A stretch of DNA of 64,000 nucleotides from Tubiluchus corallicola (taxonomy: Eukaryota > Priapulida > Priapulimorpha > Priapulimorphida > Tubiluchidae): contig JAQGDQ010000036.1 in the NCBI GenBank assembly GCA_030141605.1, forward strand, positions 62,001 through 126,000, in the 5' to 3' direction. Of this stretch, positions 10,801-63,500 are shown in pieces. Position numbers and translations under genes: made by a program. The first letter of the stretch is position 1, and each line of letters starts with the position of its first letter. The notes beneath the pieces were generated by a model. That model saw only the letters and a program-made list of their open reading frames with translations. It searched no databases and was not told where the DNA came from.

Positions 10801-13800
10801 TAATCTGATAACACCTTATTTTCACATTAGGTGGAGATTTACCAGAACACTTCAAAATTGCACTACCAGCTTTGTCTCCAACTATGGAAATGGGTACAAT
10901 TGTTAACTGGGAGAAGAAGGAAGGTGACCAGCTTAATGAGGGAGACTTGTTGTGTGAAATTGAAACTGATAAAGCAACTATGGGATTTGAAACTCCAGAG
11001 GAAGGTTTCTTAGCAAAAATACTCATTAAGGAAGGAACAAAAGATGTGCCGATTGGAAAAGTGTGTTTCATCTTATTTTTTGTGACGCTGTTTAATTTTC
11101 TGCTTGTTTACCAAACAGTTTAAAAATTGTTTTCTCTGCATAAGACTGTGTTAACTACATGTGTTTAAATCTTCTAGACTTTTTTGAGATCATCATTGAT
11201 TTAGCGAATCCACTATTACTGGATCTAGATAAATGCGACGAATCTTGGTTTAATTTGAGTATCATCTGCTGAATCCAGCTATTATATATAGTTTACTAAA
11301 TTCAGTTTTTTGGACGCTTTGACTTGGATTTGCTAATTCTTGGATTCTGACGCTACATGTATACATTTACTTTTAGTAGCCTGTATGGGACATCAAATTA
11401 TCTAACGACATCCTGCGTATAATATCTGATACTTATATGAGTACTTAGTAAGGTGGAAAATTATATCAAGTTTAGCACTTTTAAAATTATAGAAATTGAA
11501 ATATGCGGAAGCATAATTACACTTGTAACCAGCAATCTATTAGCAGTTATATTACTAATTTAATTTCCCCCACTCGTATAATAGTGCGGATCGCTTAAGT
11601 GCCTGTAAGTGTGTACGTGTCATGCAAATTTGGTGGCTGTTATGAAATTTGCATCATATGTACCGAGAGAAGTCGGCTTCTATTAGACTATTGTATACAC
11701 TTGATTTTCAGAGGGTGAGCTGCAATCTAATGTTGTGTAAGTCTTACTGTCTTTGCAATAATATTGTTTAAATCGCTTAGTAAAAACGCCTTGTTGTATT
11801 ACAGTAAAATGCAGTGGATAACACAGTTGCGTGGATTGCGTAATTAGCTCGTGTTACAGTCAAATCTATGGGATATAATTTACCAAATCAGGGTCTTTCA
11901 ATCCTGTCGAATATCGTATCGAACTTCGGATCCGGTGCATCGCTCAGCACTAATGCATTGACTTGTTTGCAATGAGTATGACAATTACTGCCTAATTGTA
12001 GTTTTTAGTTTAAAAACTGTTCTTTTTATTTGCCATTGCAGTTACTGTGCATTATCGTAGCTAACAATGACGACATAGCGGCTTTCAAAGATTTTGTTGA
12101 TGATGGATCTGTAGCAGCTCCTCCTCCTGCACCAGAACCTCCTGCGCCACCCAAACAGGCACCCGTGCCACCACCACCGTCTCCTCCTGCAAAAGCTCAG
12201 CCTGCTGCTGCTCCACCACCTACATTCACGTCATTTCCTGCAGCAACAATGCCACCCCCGCCAGCTACAACTCTACCAGCACCAGGAGCTTCACTAGGAG
12301 GGGAAAGAATATTTGCTTCGCCTTTAGCTAAAACAATGGCAGCTGAACGAGACATTGACTTGTCTGTAAGTAAAGTGTTTCTTACATTACTAGATCTCCA
12401 TATTTCAACAGTTTACGTGCTTTTGATATATTATTTCAACCCACTACAACAGTGGGAAACTTCGCAAACTTTACAGTTTTTATAAGATGTGAAGTGCCTT
12501 TTGTGACAGCGCGACATGTGATAAGTGCTTTACAATGTATCGCTTTGATGCTCATCAAGCTGAGGACCAAAGACGTAAAAAGCTATATTCTTGTTGAGCT
12601 CACGATCTCAATGACATGCTGAACTCGAGTAAAATGCTTTACCTTTTTTTAAGTGAATTCTATTTGAATCTTTGCAGCTGGTTACGCCATCTGGACAAGA
12701 TAAAGTAATACGTGCATCAGATATAGAAGCATTTGCTTCAGCTGCACCACCACTTGTTTCAGCTGCCCCAGCTGCCACATATGTTGATGTTCCACTTACT
12801 AACATGCGACAGGTAATATATTTTGAATTAATAAAAATGTCACTACAATGTTCTTGTAATTCTTTGTCATTAATGTAAAATATGATGGATCTTGTTTTTA
12901 CAGGTAATTGCAAAGCGGCTGGTCTTGTCGAAACAAACAATACCTCATTATTACTTATGTATAGATGTTGAAATGGATAAAATTATAAGGTAATCATAGA
13001 GATTATGGATATAATGTTATTGTCAGGTTTGAAATTTGACATATTTACTTATTGTATAGATTTTTTTGACTATTAAGAAGTATATGAAATTTCCAAAATT
13101 TTTATTTAATTAAACTCATTAAAAGACTTGCCAAAAGAAGCAGTTGAGATTGCAAAATTACTTAAGTTGCTATAAAATTGCGTAATAAAACTGTCAAGCA
13201 GTGGTTTTTCTACTCTTTAATTAATTTTGTTTCATTTTGACAGCATGCGAAAAGAATTTAATCAGCATTTAGAAAAAGAAGGTATCAAGTTATCAGTAAA
13301 TGACTTCCTTGTAAAAGCAGCAGCATTGGCGTGTAGGAAAATTCCTGAAGTCAACTCATCATGGATGGATAACTTTGTTAGACAGTATGTATTTACACAT
13401 TCCTCTTAATGTACTAGGTATTATGTAAAGAAATGTTTTTATTGAACTCTTACACAAGTGTAGGTAATATGCAAGTCTCATGTTGACTAATGGTTATCTC
13501 TAGCAGGCAATGTTGACCATGCGAATTTAATTTCAGATACACTTCAGTAGATATCAATGTTGCTGTAAGTACTGAAGGAGGACTTATAACTCCTATCGTC
13601 TTTGGAGCTGATAAAAGGGTAAATATTGCACTGTTGCACTGCCAATCGCTGTCTCTCCACTGCTTAGTAGTTACACCCAACTGTAACGTGTTATAATTGA
13701 ATCAATCAAATCTATTTACAGTGGCTAATTATTTGCCTCTTATTCATTGTTTAGTAATAACCTCTAACTATACTGCTTAGTAACAAGACCCATATGAATT

Positions 13801-25713: not shown

Positions 25714-27959
<2,246 letters not shown>

Positions 27960-47926: not shown

Positions 47927-49706
47927 CTTCTGTGCAGTGTTTCCTTAACTGTATATTTTCCCAAAAACTTTAACAACAGGCTTTGTTTTTTAGAATAATG
48001 TTAAAACTCAAAAGTAATAATGCATTTTATTACAGTTGTTAAGCATATTTCATGACACAACTCTAAAAGCAGCGGTTCTTCAGGAATACACTTTTTAAAT
48101 AATTTAAAGCAAAACAGGACGATTTTTCATATGCTACTCCATTTTGAAGTTCGGTAAAATGTATACATTTTAACCAACAAAATAATGCCAAAGATTTTCT
48201 GATAATTGAATTACAGGTTAAAAACTTAATTAACAGCAGGCGAGCCCAGCTAGTGATGACCTCACAAACGAACACAATTTTCAACAGCACAAATATTCCG
48301 TGAGCGTGTTTATGAAAGCAAAAATTGAAGTACAGTACTACTATACAAGATTCAGTGTAATATACAAAAACTCGTATATATACATATACTACATATACAT
48401 AAATTGAAATTTTATATTTACCGCCATGCTCATGCATGAGCTCTCGAGCTTGTATATTATGTCAGAAATGAACAGCTCTGGACTAAGAGGTACAGCACCT
48501 GTTTTTCATGCAACACGTTTCCGAAATGCAGGTGTTCATTGCCATCTAACTAATGAATGGCGAAATGCATGTAACTGCGAAGAACTAGCCACTGGAACAC
48601 AAAGTTACTTTTGTGTGGTAATAATTCTTTCATGTAAATCATTCTTTAAAAAAATAGTATGTTCTCTTTCAATATTTTAAAGAGTAGATTGTTTTGGCCT
48701 ATAGTTTATGATTGGGTCGGGTTTTCCTTTAAACTTGCAGTGCATTTTGGTTTTTGCTAGATCTGTTGTCATTGTGTATTTATTGCTACCAGGGAAAGTA
48801 TTGCACTGGAGCATAACTGTGGCCAAACCGCCGTTCATCTGTGAAGTTTATACTTGTGTTACCTGAAAGAAAAATATCTGTCAGTATTAATTTTAGTGAA
48901 TGTGTAGCTGTGGTTCTACCACACATTTTTTGGGTTGACTCAATTAAATCAATACACTTCACGCTTCCAGTCTAGGATATGGTAGACATTTATAGAATGA
49001 TAGAGAACACGTTACTATCTAAAATAATATTGAGGCTTACCTCAACACTAGAAGAATGTTTACAGCTCCACTGAGCTACACAATTTGGTCGGATAGCCAA
49101 CTAACTGAAAGTATCCTATTGATGTGGGGCAAGCTACCTGGTTGAGACTGTAAACAGGTCTCTCTTTGGTAATGTTTGCTCAGTTTAACCAGTTTAATAC
49201 TCTATAGAAAGGACAACTTTTTTGCTGAATTGGATAAGCTTTGTTTCTAATTTGTTTATTTAATCCATTATGATCCTTCACACAGGAAATCTTTCAGGAG
49301 ATCTTTATTGGAATTGAAATAATAAAGATTACACTTATTCCCTAATTTTTTTAGCTTTTGAAGTTCTATTTTGTCTAAAACATACTTTTATCTGTCACTA
49401 CAATTAAAAATTTTCTAATTCCTCATTTGCTATTGCAATATAATTGCAGTATTAAGAAATAATTAAGAAAGTAAGTGAATAAAATGAATTAAATAAACTG
49501 AATTTGAAATAAATAACTATAAGAATGGCTCAGCTTCAAATTATCGATAATTAATGTACGGCAAAGAATTTCAATAAATCCAAGGGAATTTTTCATTCAA
49601 TCTGAATTGCACAATTTTGTATTTCCTGTAAACTCCAAATTCCATAGCCAAAAAAAGCTTTGAACAGTGAAGAATTCCCAATTTTTATTTTATGCGTTGT
49701 TTATTT

Positions 49707-51017
49707 TTACTTACCCCATGCTTTTCCCTTCACGTAATTGTTATTTTTATGTTTGCCGTAGAAATCAGAGAAGTAGTTCTTTTGCGTTGTTTGTGTCTTT
49801 CCAACAGTATTATAGTTATTGTTGTAGAAGTTATTATTATTGTTATCTCTGTACACACTGTTGTCTTTGTAAAGGTCCTTGCCATGTTTGTTATGAAAAC
49901 CTTCTTGATGTTTTTTTGCAAATATTCTGCCATGTAACTTGTTGTGACGGTTGTTTAGAATTGGTGATGGTGGTGGATGATGGATTAGTCCACCATATGC
50001 ACCTGCAGGAGGGTAAGGTGCTCGTCCTTCTGCTTGTATAACTGGATGGTATGCTTCGCTTCCATGAATTCTTTTGTCTGGATGTAGCTCTCTGTTGTGT
50101 GGCAAAGGACCCAATTGTTGTTGGTAGGCATTTTGTCTAGGTATTTCATTAGGAATACTTCGATATCCTATTCGTTCATTTAAGCCGTGATGATTTCTCT
50201 GATGTGCTCGTCCATAATTAACTGAATCTTGATGTAGTCTTGCTTCATAAGCTCTTCCTGCATGAGTTAATGGTAGTTTATGGACATACCCCAGAGTATT
50301 GTCTTTGTCTTGGTAGCCATCAGTTCTATAAGGTTTGTATCTTACTTGATTTAATCTATTTAAGGGATTTGCATAATTTTGTACAGCGTCAATCCTATCT
50401 TCATATGCTTTTGTATTCAGTCTGCCTGAATAGTATGTTCCATCTGCATTGGTTCTGCCTGGATGTGATGCATGGGTGCTACTTCTACCAGTATATGCAG
50501 GAGTATTTACATTTCTAACTGAGCTGCCATACATTCCACTACCAGCATATACGGCTCTACCTTCATGTCTACCCAGATTTTGTCTTCTGTGCTGTCTTGT
50601 TTCTTGAGATCTGTTGTCATGATATTTTGTTGGGTAACCTTCCCTATATACACCGGTTCTTCCTGGCCTTTTGTGGCCATATCTACCCAAGTCACTTGTC
50701 TTGCTTGCATGATGAACTGAATTTGGATGACCATATGCAGTTCGTCCGTTATTATAAACTGTACCTTGGGTGGTATCATATCCTGCAAATTATGCAAATT
50801 TTTACAATGTTAGTTTTATGCTTTTTTACGAAAAAACAATAGTGTTACTTCTAAATTTTTTACTTACCTACTTCAATTCAGTTTTATTTGCACAAATACA
50901 TACAATGTACATTGGCAAAGCAATACACGTTAACTGCTACATAAACCACATATATATATATATATATTTCACAAAAGGCGGTACAATTTTTTTAACTACA
51001 CTAGTTTCACTCATATG

Positions 51018-51049
<32 letters not shown>

Positions 51050-52941
51050 TGCGTGTGTGTACCACCTTTTGTGAAAAAAATATCAATGTGATTACAGATG
51101 CAGAACTCATCGGCTAGGTTTATACATCAAACACATTGCAATTTTAATATATTTTGATTACGTCAGAGATTTTTGCATTTGCGCTACACTTGCGGATATT
51201 ATATTCTCTGATTATGCTAGCGTTGTTCCCCCACCCACGCAATGATGTAATAATAAGCCCTAGAGAAATGCGCGACATCAGAATGTCGATAATCCACATT
51301 TTTTCAGACATAAGCTATATCGATGGAGTATTAATCAGGATCAATGTTAGACGTGCACAACGCTCACAGCAGCATAAACTGTTCCACTGTAAGGGGCAAG
51401 GCATTTGGGCTTGGCCGCGTAATCGTACTTTTTCTGCAACTTATATAAGGAGTCCGAATATCGATATCAGTCATTTGCTCGTCGGTATAGTGAATTTCAA
51501 AATTGGTAAAACTGATTCGTGACATTCATATTATTTGAACCAACAAAATTTTATAAAATTGACGTGCCTAGGCCCATATGAAGCTTATCGTTACGTGCTA
51601 ATGATATTTTACGTACATGTAGTACTTACTAGAATTGAAACCGAGTTGTCGTTGTTGCTCGTATCCGTTTGTTTGATCATGAATGCGATAAGCAGAAATG
51701 AGGGTCCACTAAAATAAAATATAAGCAAGTCGGTTAAACAACTAAGTGTAAAACTAAAAAACTACGATCTCTTATTATCTCGATTTAATCGCGAATTAAA
51801 GCCAATTTTATGCGTTCTTCTTTTGTAACCGGAGCAACATTAGCTTTTATTTGACCTGTGATTTGTATTCAGACAGCGTATATATCATGCAGCCCATAAA
51901 AATAATTTTTTGAAAACTACTTTCTCACATTTTCCCTAAACTAATCATTAAAATATTGATGTTAACTTTGTGTTACGTGTGAATTTTATGCCTGATAAAA
52001 AAACATTATTGGGGTACTTAACTATTTTAAATGTTTAAAAATATTCGAAGTTTTCTTCTAATGAAGTCTTAACTGAATTACGTCAATTTTGTACGTTTGT
52101 AGAGCAATCTTATTTTATACAATACTACTGGAACTTCAAATACGGGTGTGGAATATTAATGCTCTAAACTGGGGGAATTAATCGCTTATGCTTGCTAAGA
52201 AATTGAATATTTGTTGTTGTTATTTTATTAGACAACCTGCATGTGTAATTACACATGCTTCTTGGCTCGCAAAACACCGCAGTGACGCATACCACAGCAA
52301 CTACTTGTGTACGCGGTTCACAACCAGTAAGCAACCAGTGGTCTATGCGTACTTTTCACGTGAGCCATGCTGCTTGAATCTTTATTTTTTTCTTATATTA
52401 CCATTTTTGTGAATTAAAGGAAAGTTCTGTCAAAAGTGGAAAATTATATAAAAAACAATTGGCCCCTTCCAATGAAAACTTCATTTTAGTTCAATTTCCA
52501 TTCATCGTCCTTTATTTTTATATTTGTAACAATACAGGGAACAACATGCGATCTGCTCAAAGTCTAGGTGGTCCGTAGATTGTATAGTCAACTGCGGTTC
52601 TTTTCTTCCGAAACCCAACTGGGCCGTGGGCCAAGAAAAGTTTGGAACCTCTTATCTGGTCTAGACTGTAGATCATATCACATGACAGTGAAGCGCCTGT
52701 GAAGGCTTGAGGTTACCGAAGCCTAGCTACGCTCCCACAGTGCATATTATCAAAGTTAAAAGCAGTTTTATAAATTCTATTTTATGCTTTTAAGATAACA
52801 CAATGTCAAGGAAATTACAATTTTTTTAATTAAATAATATTTTCTCACACTTGTATTCATTATAATCAATATAAAAACACTTACAGATTTTACGACGAGA
52901 ATTGCTCCGAATATCAGAAGACTGCCCATTTTTCTCACCAT
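49707..52941 (-). CDS. Unrecognised secreted Tyr/His/Asn/Gly-Arg-rich protein
   Basis: Minus-strand exons 52885-52941, 51630-51708 and 49707-50782 join in phase (ends 0, 1) to 403 residues, with GTAAGT donors on introns 1 and 2. Exon 1 encodes MVRKMGSLLIFGAILVVKS, a short basic head plus hydrophobic core typical of a signal peptide. The mature part has no cysteine and no recognised domain. Tyr is about 9% of the last exon, with many His, Asn, Gln, Arg and Gly. Gly-Arg occurs about a dozen times, spaced roughly every 25-30 residues, often near Tyr (GRAVYAG, GRAYEA, GRAPYPP). The C-terminal 60 residues are Asn/Tyr/Lys-rich, with an N5 and two N3 runs. It may be a structural, adhesive or matrix protein; a multi-peptide precursor is less likely because residues before Gly-Arg are not conserved. 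The stop overlaps a consensus splice donor, and AATAAA follows 1 nt after the stop (complement of 49700-49705). Confidence 0.8.
50968..51075. repeat. Short inverted-repeat unit enclosing a (GT)n/(GTGC)n microsatellite
   Basis: TTCACAAAAGGCGGTAC (50968-50984) and GTACCACCTTTTGTGAA (51059-51075) are inverted repeats with one mismatch. Between them lies GT/GC-rich simple sequence (51016-51060). It sits in intron 2 of the secreted-protein gene and may be a tiny MITE. Confidence 0.75.
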
Positions 52942-57508: not shown

Positions 57509-60500
57509 TCACAACGGAAAGATCACGTAATGGAATAAAGCTATACTACTAAACACAGAAACAAATACAGATAAATGTATCCTACATGCTGCAGAGCCAG
57601 TTGTGCTCAAATGTGATGTTCTAACTCCAGCAGCTATTAGAGGAGAAAGAGACAGATCTGAAAGAAGAATAGGGCTTCCTGATCTAATCATCAGTTCAAT
57701 TTTCATGGCTTCTGTATGGCAGGCTTTTATCTGTAGAAAAATAACGAAAAAAATAATTTTACAAAACACGTACATGAGCATTACCAACACAACAAATGCA
57801 ACCAGCAACACAGCATTCTTCCAATTATTTGTAAAGCTTAAAAGCCAACTAAGTAATGACAAGCAGGCCAATTCAGATATAGATAATTTGTGACTTTACA
57901 ATATTTTTAGGAAATGTTTATTCTATACATATTATATATTATTATTTTAGAGTCATACTTATGCTATGAATAACATTTCTAATCCATACTATTCCATCAG
58001 ACACATGCCACAGTGTACACACCTGCACATGAGTTGGATTATCAACTACAGGTATCACTAAGATAATGAGTTCTGACTCGATGCTCAAGTATCCAAAAAC
58101 ATCACATTCTGGAACCATCACATGAACTTGTAGCTTGCTTGTAATGGTATGGACGGTCAGAGGATCACTCTTTGTAGCTTTTGCAGCACGATTTGCCTGA
58201 GATCTGCTGTAGATTATCCTCACTTCAGCAGCTAAAACACAAACGATGAATTTATATAGCACAGGCTGATGATAAACTTAAAAACCAGTTGAGGACAGCA
58301 GGTTTTGAAAACGTACTAGACACTAGTTAAAAGATGTTGGTAGTTCTAAGCCCGCTCTGGAACCAAACCAGCCATGTTGTGAAAATTAGGAATTAACCCT
58401 AATCACTAATCACAAAAAATAGACCACTTCTTGGAATTACTAAGAAACTCATTAGTATGTAAATCCGTGTAAAACAATGCTTTCCGACTGCATATAGAAG
58501 GTGAAACCCAAAACTTACCGCAAATAGGACAGCAGTTTCCAGGAGGTGTAATCCCTTTACAATTCTTTGCATTTAAAGGCGGACATGTTACTCCTGTACA
58601 CTGAGAATTCAAAACATCTAAATCTGCAACAAAAAAACAATTGCACATCTGATGAAAATTTGAAGTACTTTTTTAAAAAAACAATTCCCCAAAATAAATA
58701 AATCACTGTAGCCAGTGATCAACTGTTTAACAGCTATCCATGCAAACAGATAAACTCACATTTTGTTACACATCTGAGCAACAGGTGGCACAACATTCCT
58801 GGATGCACAACAGTGAAAATAATTATACTGTGAAATGCATGCAAAACTTACAGGTTAGTTGTCCGACAGCTTTACATGATCCAATGTAATCAACTGCTAC
58901 TTTATCTGCCCAGGCAGCACATTCACTACTGTATGTTTCTCCATTGCGACCACAAACAATGCCTTCCGTCTTACATTTTTGCTAAAATTTAATAATTTGT
59001 TAAAATAAAAAAAGTTGAAAAATTGTAATAGTACCAACAAAAGGACACGTTAATGTACTAGTTTCTAAAACAGAAAGACATATCAATACCAACTTCTTTC
59101 AACCATTCATGTAATAAAATTTACAAAACATAAGTACACAATGTACATATGGCTGACATGCACTATAGACCATTATAAAAAATAAGCTTACCACACATGT
59201 GCCCTTATGGAGACCATCAGCATGGATAAACTGACACATGGAATTTGGATTTTCCAGCTTACAGAGGGAATTATGTATCTCTGCTTTACAGTTAATATGA
59301 AGAGGCACACAATCATACTGCTTGCAATGCGGAGAATTTTTCGAAAAATTTACTAGGCAGATGCGTCTTCTCGGGATACATCTACAAATAACATTATGCA
59401 TACGCTCAGAAAATGTCTTTCAAACTCAGAATGTTTGACACTTACACTTTACTACATTACTTTCAGTTTTTAAAAATTCATTAATCTACTTAGATTGCAC
59501 AATGCTGCAAGCCAGTGTCAAACCTAGTGCCAGCTAGATGAAATCAATTAAAACTCTTCGATTACTTTGAAACAATCTGAAAACTGTTTATGGTCAGGAT
59601 TACTTATTACACAGCAAGAATCAACATTAATTTTAATAATCACAGAAAACCAAAAAAAAAATTAGAATAGAGATGCAGACAATCACAGCACTTTTATCGC
59701 AATACAAGAGTATTAACAATTGTAAAAATGGCTAATGTACTACCTTTCATTTGGCCCACATGAATTCTTATGACAAGGATCTTTCGTGCATGCACCAAGT
59801 GAATACTGATCCTCAGATTCCAGTGCACACCTGGGCATAAAACAATTTCATTTTAGATACTTCATTTTACAATACATTTTAAATACTTCAAAAAGAAATA
59901 GGCAGTTTTTATTACACTGATTACAAACATGTAATGGTAGGTGCTGATATAGGTTTTCAGTCAAGAATTTTAATTTTTCTAAATTTAACAAAATTGGGAA
60001 TAGTAGTTACTGTAACATCATTCAGACTTCTACACACCTCGCTAGACATTCATTAGGATACGTTCGCCCATTGATTCCACAGACTGGTTTGTAATGCTCT
60101 CTGCAGTAACATGGTAGGCCACGATATCCGACAGCACTATCTTGACTTGGTGGACACATACGATTGCTACATGTCACCTCATTATCATAACAGACGCAGA
60201 CATTACAGCCGTCATACCAATGAGTGTTATGTGCTGAAACAATGGCAGTTTAATGATTTAATAAAATTATGCAGTTAAAAGCATAAAAAAAGATTAATAT
60301 GTACCCAAAAAAATACTTTTGGTATCTCTCATTTCATTAATGTGGCCATTAACAAGTCTTCAATGTCAAAATGTCAAGTATGATGTTCAAAACCATTTCA
60401 TGCTCGTTTAAGCAACTATATCTAGCTCATTAATCCCTTATTTATTCTTTTTTTGCATACTTTTATTTATCATTTATTACTGTATTATCTACTAACAATA

Positions 60501-63500
60501 CTGCATTAACTTTATAAGTTGATAAAATACAAAAACATATGTAACAACTACCAAAAATGAAATCGTAACCACATAACTGAAGATAGACAGCTAATGTTTA
60601 CCTTTAACTTTATCTCCGTGTAGACATGTCCGTGCACCTTGGCATGGCATATTTTCACATTTTTCTAATATGTTTTTCTCTGTGCATTGACACACTTTGT
60701 AACAGCCCCAGTCCCGGAAATCCATGTCATTGTTTGGGGTAGGAATTCGAACAAACGTACCACGTGGCACAAGAAATTCAGATACCTCCCCCATTTTACA
60801 TCCAGGCTGGCAGAGGTAAGGAACACAAGTACGCTTATTGATACACTGCCGTTGTACAGTACATATCTGATTTTTACCACAAGGATTTGGCTTGCACGGA
60901 TGAGAAACATCATTTGAACTTGCAGCATATGGACTTTCAACTGTGTAAAGACAGAACATGTCACAGCTTAATAAGCATGTCAATAGAAGTTTTATGATAT
61001 GTAAAACACGAGTTTGGGATTTAATGTAATTATTGAAAGCTAGTATTTCTACCAGATAAACTCACAACAGTAAATTCACTACAGAAATTTACAGTCACTT
61101 TACATGCAAAAACTGAATCTCCTTAATACACGAGGAATCAAACATAGACATAGCGCTCATTGCTGCAAGCACTGCTAAATTAACAGCTTGCACTCACAAA
61201 GACTTACAAAAATGAAAAGAAATGTTAAAATAGGTAAGCACTTATCTATAAACTAACTTACTCAAATACTTAGTTACAGATATGCAGGGAGTATTATCGT
61301 CAATGGGTGCCATTGCATCACATATACTTTCAGGAGTATTTCCTAGCAATCTTGACCTGTCTGCACATTTAGACAAAATCATGAGGCAGTCTGATCTGCA
61401 AAAAAGTAAAGAATATGACATTAATTTTTCTTGCCACTCACACTATATATTTTATTAAATTTGTTAAACAATTGTCATTCAACAAAAATACCCTTGATGT
61501 TAAAAATGGTTGAAAAAACTTCCAAAAAAATTCACTTATCATGACCTTTTTAGCAAGCACAAAATTCAGAGTTCATAAAACTTAGAATACAACAGCTGCA
61601 CCCTAAGCTTTCTAAAATGTGACAGCAGACAAGATTTATTAAAAGAAAAGAAAAATGAGAATGAATGATACATGACAGGTAGCCCCTCGGCAACAATCTC
61701 ACCGAAGACGGTGACAAATTGAAAAATTCTATAAACTGGTTGAGTTACAAAAGACCATCATCTTGGTAAGATTGGTTAAAAACTAGTGTGTTGACTAGGG
61801 GTGTTCGAGGTTTGGGAAATATTCGAGGCTCGGGTCGGGATCAGCAGTTGGGGATTGGGATTCGGATGAATTCAAGCTCGGGATCTTTTGGGGTTCAGGA
61901 TCAAGTGATCGGAATTGAGGTTCAGGTAAATATAATTATCAGCAAATGGAGAAAAGAAAATTGCAGCGAAGTTTTAGCTCCACCCATTAATATTGATAAC
62001 TGTGGCATGATTCACCAAACTGCACGCTCAAATGATGCTCAGTTCTGACTTTTCATGGTTCCTTTCAAGTGGTATGGCTTCATAAATTCAATAAATGTAG
62101 ATTTATACCACTAACTGGTAGTTTCAACAAGTAATATTGAAACTAAGAAATTATATAAATTATTTACGTGTTTGTTTAATGTGGTATTTGTGGAACTGGC
62201 TAATTCTTTATTATTAAAGTCTAATAATTATAACAAAGACTTCAAAAAATGCCTCGTGTCGTGAACATCATAATTATTGATAAAAAACAAGACAAGAAAT
62301 CTTTCCGAATTGCAAACAGCCTCACGATGCCATAATCCTACAGTATTTAGTTCAGCAGCCAGAAAATCTAGTTTAGAAAAAGTATCTAGACTAACAGGCT
62401 TTCACCCACACACATGCCTAGCAGCATGCCAGCAACAAATTCATTAACTGCCCTGTGGATGCGGTTCTCTCAATGACAAAGCATTTGCTTTTGTCCTTGT
62501 TCATGCAGTAACAATAAGTGTATTCCTTATTTCCCTGTGGTGTCTCCCTGCACTGAGTGTGCCTATTTTACTATGATAAGTTAAATGTAAAATAAATGTG
62601 ACAGTAATCTTCTTGCTATGAAGTTTAAAATAATTGTTAGAAAGAATAGTTATACATAGGGCCTACTGACCAAGAAGCAATATCTACTTGGGCGATATTC
62701 AGATAGGAAAGATACTAGTAGCATACATAGTAAAATAACATAACACAAAAAAATGACAAATTATTTTTTGTAAATTGTTCCAACATTACAGCAAAGATAT
62801 CTCATCAGAAGTGCCACACTAATACACTCTATGTCCGCAAAAAGCTAATCATGCATTTACTTGAAAGTACTTTTTACTTTAAGACATTTTAAAAATATCA
62901 CGACGTAGTTAAGGTTAATAAAATTCCAATAAACAAATTTAAGCGATGAATAATGGCTCATTTTTATTCATATGCCTCAAAAAACTAAAATAAAGTAAAT
63001 GTTGTTTTCGAATATTATTAATGTTTCAAGTTCGGGGCTGGGATTGGGTTCGAGACGTGATGACAGTGAATGTTCGGGGTTTGACAAAAGTTCGGGATGG
63101 AGGCTCGGATTTCGAGATCATAACTTAATAGCTGTACTTATTTGACACATATAATTGTACTTACTTGCATATTGGATTAGTGTAAGCTCGAGTGTTGCAT
63201 GGTTTAATCTGCAGCATGCAAGCGATTGCTTTCCATAATTGTGGTTCACATTTATTTATATCCAAGACTGGAATATTCATCAAAAGCATGCGGTGATTTA
63301 TAGTTCCGTTCTTCCACAGCATGATGTCATTTCTTGCAGCTGCATCTGCGCGTTGATTGCAGGATCTAAACAGCTCTGTTGGTCTGTCATTAAAGTTTGT
63401 GCAGTATGAAAGCCCGCTACATCCTGGCTCACACGGCTCTTCAACTAGAAATAATGAAACATTATTAAACTAACAGAAACACAATAAATCTAAAGCAGTA

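Follow-up and report, generated by a model that had tools for sequence, protein, structure and literature searches.

Introduction

Spidroins combine a variable bulk sequence with a conserved C-terminal module that is common to different chains, and spidroin terminal domains are included in the PDB. Mussel and other Tyr/DOPA adhesive proteins, as well as eggshell precursors, are Tyr-, Lys/Arg- and His-rich secreted chains, and a Tyr/Gly/Lys-rich composition is also typical of the latter. Silk-like structural proteins have been delimited by a rule (SilkSlider) that asks for a signal peptide and at least 25% glycine in an 80-residue window (McDougall et al., 2016; PMC4944945).

This article describes a gene found in a 64,000-nucleotide stretch of the Tubiluchus corallicola genome (the window, at its full length) and the family to which it belongs, which appears to be a small set of secreted Tyr-rich animal proteins in which a conserved tail is joined to unlike, repetitive or biased bodies. 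In organisation the family is like the spidroins, with a variable bulk and a shared C-terminal module. With the Tyr/DOPA adhesive proteins and eggshell precursors it has in common Tyr-, Lys/Arg- and His-rich secreted chains, and with the silk-like structural proteins the predicted secreted type, the biased composition and the lack of a Pfam domain (McDougall et al., 2016).

Structure of the Gene and Its Product

As read from the sequence, the window gene comprises three exons on the minus strand (52941-52885, 51708-51630 and 50782-49707), as the first-pass annotation had proposed. Exon 1 holds the start codon and the first part of the leader (MVRKMGSLLIFGAILVVKS) and ends in a phase-0 donor. 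It is followed by intron 1 (51709-52884; 1176 bases, phase 0), by exon 2, with the end of the leader and the beginning of the mature protein, and by intron 2 (50783-51629; 847 bases, phase 1), while exon 3 encodes most of the mature protein and carries the stop codon TAA (49709-49707). Both introns are GT-AG, the junctions 52885/51708 and 51630/50782 join in phase, and the product is a protein of 403 residues ending in AWGK; the splice sites are supported by the similar build of the paralogues. On the same strand of exon 3, positions 49926-50782 encode its share of a variable, biased part rich in Gly-Arg, Tyr, His and Asn, and positions 49710-49901 a conserved C-terminal module (residues 340-403, GFHNKHGKDLYKD...AWGK), including an 18-residue core, DFYGKHKNNNYVKGKAWG, at 49713-49766 (residues 385-402). 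A possible polyadenylation signal, AATAAA, matches the consensus at 49304-49309 (minus strand), about 400 bases beyond the stop codon, and more copies start at 49705 and 49689. The last exon sits inside a frame of 360 amino acids from stop to stop, against a longest frame of 186 in 40 Markov-1 imitations of 64 kb. On sequence evidence, the gene is real.

The protein is predicted to be of the secreted type by hydropathy and the simple -3/-1 rule: a hydrophobic stretch, LIFGAILVV, lies within the first 25 residues, and the rule allows three cleavage sites, among them the one that follows WTLISA (residue 25). Cysteine is absent from all 403 residues. From residue 31 on, the composition is dominated by Asn (10.7%), Gly (10.2%), Arg (9.1%), Tyr (8.8%) and His (7.2%), which together make up 46%. 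The predicted secreted type, the lack of cysteine and the make-up of structural type that had been claimed at the outset are all supported. The Gly-Arg doublets had in addition been described as regular and placed near Tyr, and here the claim divides: Gly-Arg is enriched (12 occurrences versus a shuffled mean of 3.5, with none of 5000 shuffles reaching 12), whereas the nearness of Tyr, found within five residues of 9 of the 12 doublets, is ordinary (1784 of 5000 shuffles are equally high), and a regular Gly-Arg/Tyr spacing was rejected for that reason. Internal repeats were not detected, the self score of 43 being close to the mean of 100 shuffles (44.9). The protein is basic and very hydrophilic, and its charge and hydropathy group it with disordered proteins. 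Modelled by AlphaFold from the single sequence, exon 3 had a mean pLDDT of 45, which fits disorder without proving it, since a fold of this kind tests disorder poorly.

A Family With a Shared C-Terminus

The search for relatives covered the window's own assembly (343.5 Mb in 2344 contigs), in which COX1 had no match. With the protein of exon 3 as query, three places were matched, on the contigs C1961, C2112 and C593 (E 3e-13, 3e-4 and 1e-3), and all three matches run through the C-terminal part. A fifth gene, the second one on C593, was reached with a relative as query, and a reciprocal search from it recovered all five together with one unconvincing match (E 0.14); this sixth candidate, on C1849, has two internal stops and was left out. 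The family therefore counts at least five genes in the genome, five being a lower bound from the best candidates scored. All protein lengths given here depend on exon joins read from the genome sequence.

Three of the relatives are small (128-160 residues), Tyr/Gly/Asn-rich proteins: L008 on C1961 (128 residues) has a Gly-rich GGYGGG stretch followed by the module, L007 on C593 (147 residues) has GGYGG and then the module, and L006 on C2112 (160 residues) is Tyr/Asn-rich. The small Gly/Tyr/His-rich relatives are of the secreted type and carry a net positive charge. The fourth relative, L017 on C593, exceeds 900 residues and is Pro/Gln/Tyr-rich, with an 11-residue repeat NYPPPQQQQPV (PPPQQQQPVNY in the other register); among its nine NYPP sites, seven of the eight steps are of 11 residues and one is of 22. 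The bodies are thus unlike across the family, namely Gly-Arg/Tyr/His in the window protein, GGYGG-type, Tyr/Asn-type and PPPQQQQPVNY repeats. All five members lack cysteine after residue 22 and fall under the charge-hydropathy boundary. The variable part of the window protein finds no counterpart in the three small relatives; its N-terminal part scores 93 against L017, where 200 shuffles gave a mean of 56, a standard deviation of 9 and a maximum of 107, and this likeness of about four standard deviations is suggestive, not clear.

The module common to the five genes, some 65 residues long in the window protein, is short, hydrophilic and without glycine richness. Its core, D[FY][FY]GKHKxxxY[VL][KR]G[KT]AWG, lies near the C-terminus in five of five genes, the motif being derived from the same five, and 16 alignment columns are invariant across the five module sequences. 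In all ten pairs the module alignment exceeds composition-preserving shuffles (300 each) with z values of 14-36, and of 6-26 once the core is masked, which rules out shared composition as the cause of the likeness. In a block of 21 codons round the core, pS was 0.46-0.96 and pN 0.04-0.13 in each of the six pairs formed by four genes (L017 was left out), ratios that are rough because the block is short. Synonymous sites in this block are near saturation and its residues almost fixed, which marks the four as old duplicates with a core under purifying selection. As far as codon and residue comparisons tell, it is the conserved C-terminus, rather than the Gly-Arg or His content, that is visibly kept by selection.

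The intron positions have also been compared. A phase-0 intron interrupts the leader of four members out of five (the window gene, L006, L007 and L008), an agreement that is partly by choice, because a scan for hydrophobic first exons gave several candidates, from which the leader exons of the three small relatives were chosen by eye; in each of these three, the frame that follows the acceptor AG of the receiving exon is phase 0. For L017 no leader exon was found within the 1.4 kb scanned upstream. Close to the core, L006 and L007 have an extra phase-2 intron directly before it and L017 a phase-1 intron near it (all read by eye); none occurs there in the window gene or L008.

Genomic Surroundings

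The window gene is flanked by an amino-acid permease gene and RECK. The exons of the latter, the upstream neighbour, extend over 58406-63469 of the window (minus strand), with domain matches to FZ_RECK, EGF1_RECK and Kazal and weak ones to FnI_RECK and VWC. At 12009-12485 (plus strand), an Ala/Pro-rich frame with a weak, below-cut-off E3-binding match may represent an exon of a gene for protein X or a dihydrolipoyl acyltransferase. Simple repeats are present as very long runs of (GA)n, which translate into Arg-Glu or Ser-Leu frames (window 26379-26861; L003 2526-2869).

Contig C593 (86.4 kb, covered whole, partly N) carries two family members, L007 and L017, within a stretch of structural-type frames represented by loci L019-L024, L018, L017 and L007. 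It includes two GGYGG-type frames with glycine up to 70% per 80 residues (L019 1192-2001, plus strand; L023 6874-8217, minus strand), a Pro-rich repeat frame of 428 residues with KHQGYxDxD and LNWLAWQQPS units (L020 1983-3266, minus strand), two Tyr-rich frames with 10 and 16% Tyr (L019 9077-9586 and L020 94-573) and two further frames; a frame of 452 residues lies at L024 5874-7229 (minus strand). Carboxylesterase and peptidase M1 genes stand between the structural-type frames, and the latter had no Pfam match at E 0.01. When frames of C593 and C2112 were compared as possible kin (blastp, E 0.01, eight neighbours and five members), only pairs of members were returned. Over C2112 (130 kb, whole), the filter that singles out C593 gave the family exon, simple repeats and a small number of long unrelated frames, with no cluster like that of C593, and over the window it picked out the window gene alone. 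One of the long frames on C2112, some 32 kb from the family member, belongs to a secreted-type protein with a VWA domain after a Gln/Pro/Tyr-containing start (L033 8054-9127). The surroundings of the C1961 gene were covered over 9.9 kb. Siting among neighbours of structural type therefore speaks for a structural role in the case of L007 and L017, two members out of five.

Comparison With Described Proteins

The full window protein has no Pfam family at E<=1, four modules have no match at E<=5, and two pieces of L017 (the repeat-rich middle was left out) gave matches at chance level only. The initial statement that no family could be recognised is accordingly upheld with respect to Pfam and has to be amended with respect to the genome itself, where the gene is part of a C-terminal-module family of five or more genes. 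Among PDB sequences, no chain matched the window protein at E<=10, while a profile of the module matched a single pilin (E 0.21). In viral contigs none of 111 pattern matches was confirmed as a relative, the 58 pattern matches in prokaryote genomes included none, and plasmids gave no relative at E 0.01. Six core strings are absent from the open-access papers searched, and no such family showed in the titles or abstracts listed. The family may occur in animal protein databases as uncharacterised proteins.

Against this background, a C-terminal domain homologous to that of spidroins was not detected in the window protein by sequence comparison with PDB chains (E<=10), nor were poly-Ala or Gly-rich repeats of spidroin type, with no repeat above shuffles and glycine at no more than 16.2% in 80 residues; unlike the spidroin module, that of the family is short and hydrophilic. 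The Tyr/DOPA adhesive proteins are echoed by the 11-residue Tyr/Pro/Gln repeat of L017 and by the tyrosinase domains that the genome encodes (ten exon matches, spread over four contigs), whereas the window protein has no repeat. Under the glycine rule for silk-like structural proteins (McDougall et al., 2016), L008 reaches 26.2% in 80 residues, as the only one of five members to exceed 25%, and the window protein stays below it. It differs from the proteins described there in being Asn/Gly/Arg/Tyr/His-rich, and the family in being defined by a C-terminus that is not Gly-rich.

Alternative Readings

The window protein might give rise to small signalling peptides, amidated or otherwise, through cleavage at Gly-Arg/Gly-Lys or dibasic sites, since it contains 12 Gly-Arg and five Gly-Lys and ends in a formal amidation signal, Trp-Gly-Lys, a sequence that L008 has too. 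However, the conserved AWG is followed in three of the five members by His and not by Lys or Arg, dibasic pairs are few (five, including one in the leader), and the flanks of Gly-Arg vary; repeated similar peptides ending in Gly-Lys/Arg-(Lys/Arg) were not found in the window protein, and neither was any internal repeat. This case, already considered weak in the first-pass annotation, can be given little credence. Hardly more credible is that the family consists of His/Gly/Tyr-rich antimicrobial or mucosal defence proteins: the small secreted-type relatives with their positive charge would agree with it, but a material is the better fit for members as long as 403 and more than 900 residues, one of which has Pro/Gln repeats, and for the presence of GGYGG-type genes on the same contig, and the pieces scanned belong to no Pfam family.

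That the proteins are egg-coat or seminal components, which would be one form of the structural reading, distinct from permanent skeletal or adhesive material, agrees with the Tyr/Gly/Lys-rich composition known from eggshell precursors and is unlikely, if worth bearing in mind. As for a chance open frame or a decayed copy without function, the 360-residue frame against 186 in the imitations, the purifying selection on the core and the similar build of the paralogues contradict it, and its probability is close to nil.

A Probable Building Block of Extracellular Material

The window protein is probably a secreted building block of extracellular material, as most likely are the other members of the family, and the material may be a cuticle, a shell matrix, a tube, a glue or an egg coat. 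The best reading is that of a disordered building block, silk-like in plan and without silk homology. It is weakened because the window protein, as three of the four others, falls short of the silk-like glycine rule and is without repeats, and because the window gene's own neighbours, RECK and the permease, are ordinary.

In such a material, the variable body would provide bulk and chemistry, its Tyr residues taking part in oxidative cross-links or stacking and its His, Arg and Lys residues in cohesion or in the binding of metal or polyanions; DOPA, cross-linking and metal binding, which we infer for the window protein, would belong here. The conserved C-terminus, by analogy with silks, could act as a common assembly or docking handle by which unlike chains are brought into a common secretion or layer, serving in assembly, sorting or cross-linking. 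With its Tyr, Phe, Trp, Lys, His and Asn residues, the module would be well suited to oxidative cross-linking, to stacking and to hydrogen bonding. Held tentatively, and with more doubt than belief, is the wider proposal that an undescribed module of about 65 residues, with its near-fixed 18-residue Tyr/Asn/Lys/Trp core on unlike low-complexity bodies, marks co-assembling material proteins and that the silk plan was here invented independently.

In invertebrates, many structural proteins confined to one lineage are identified chiefly by their composition. In the present family a sequence signature marks members across unlike bodies, so that transcriptomes and proteomes of materials can be screened for them, and the short core at the C-terminus offers a testable candidate for an assembly or cross-linking handle.
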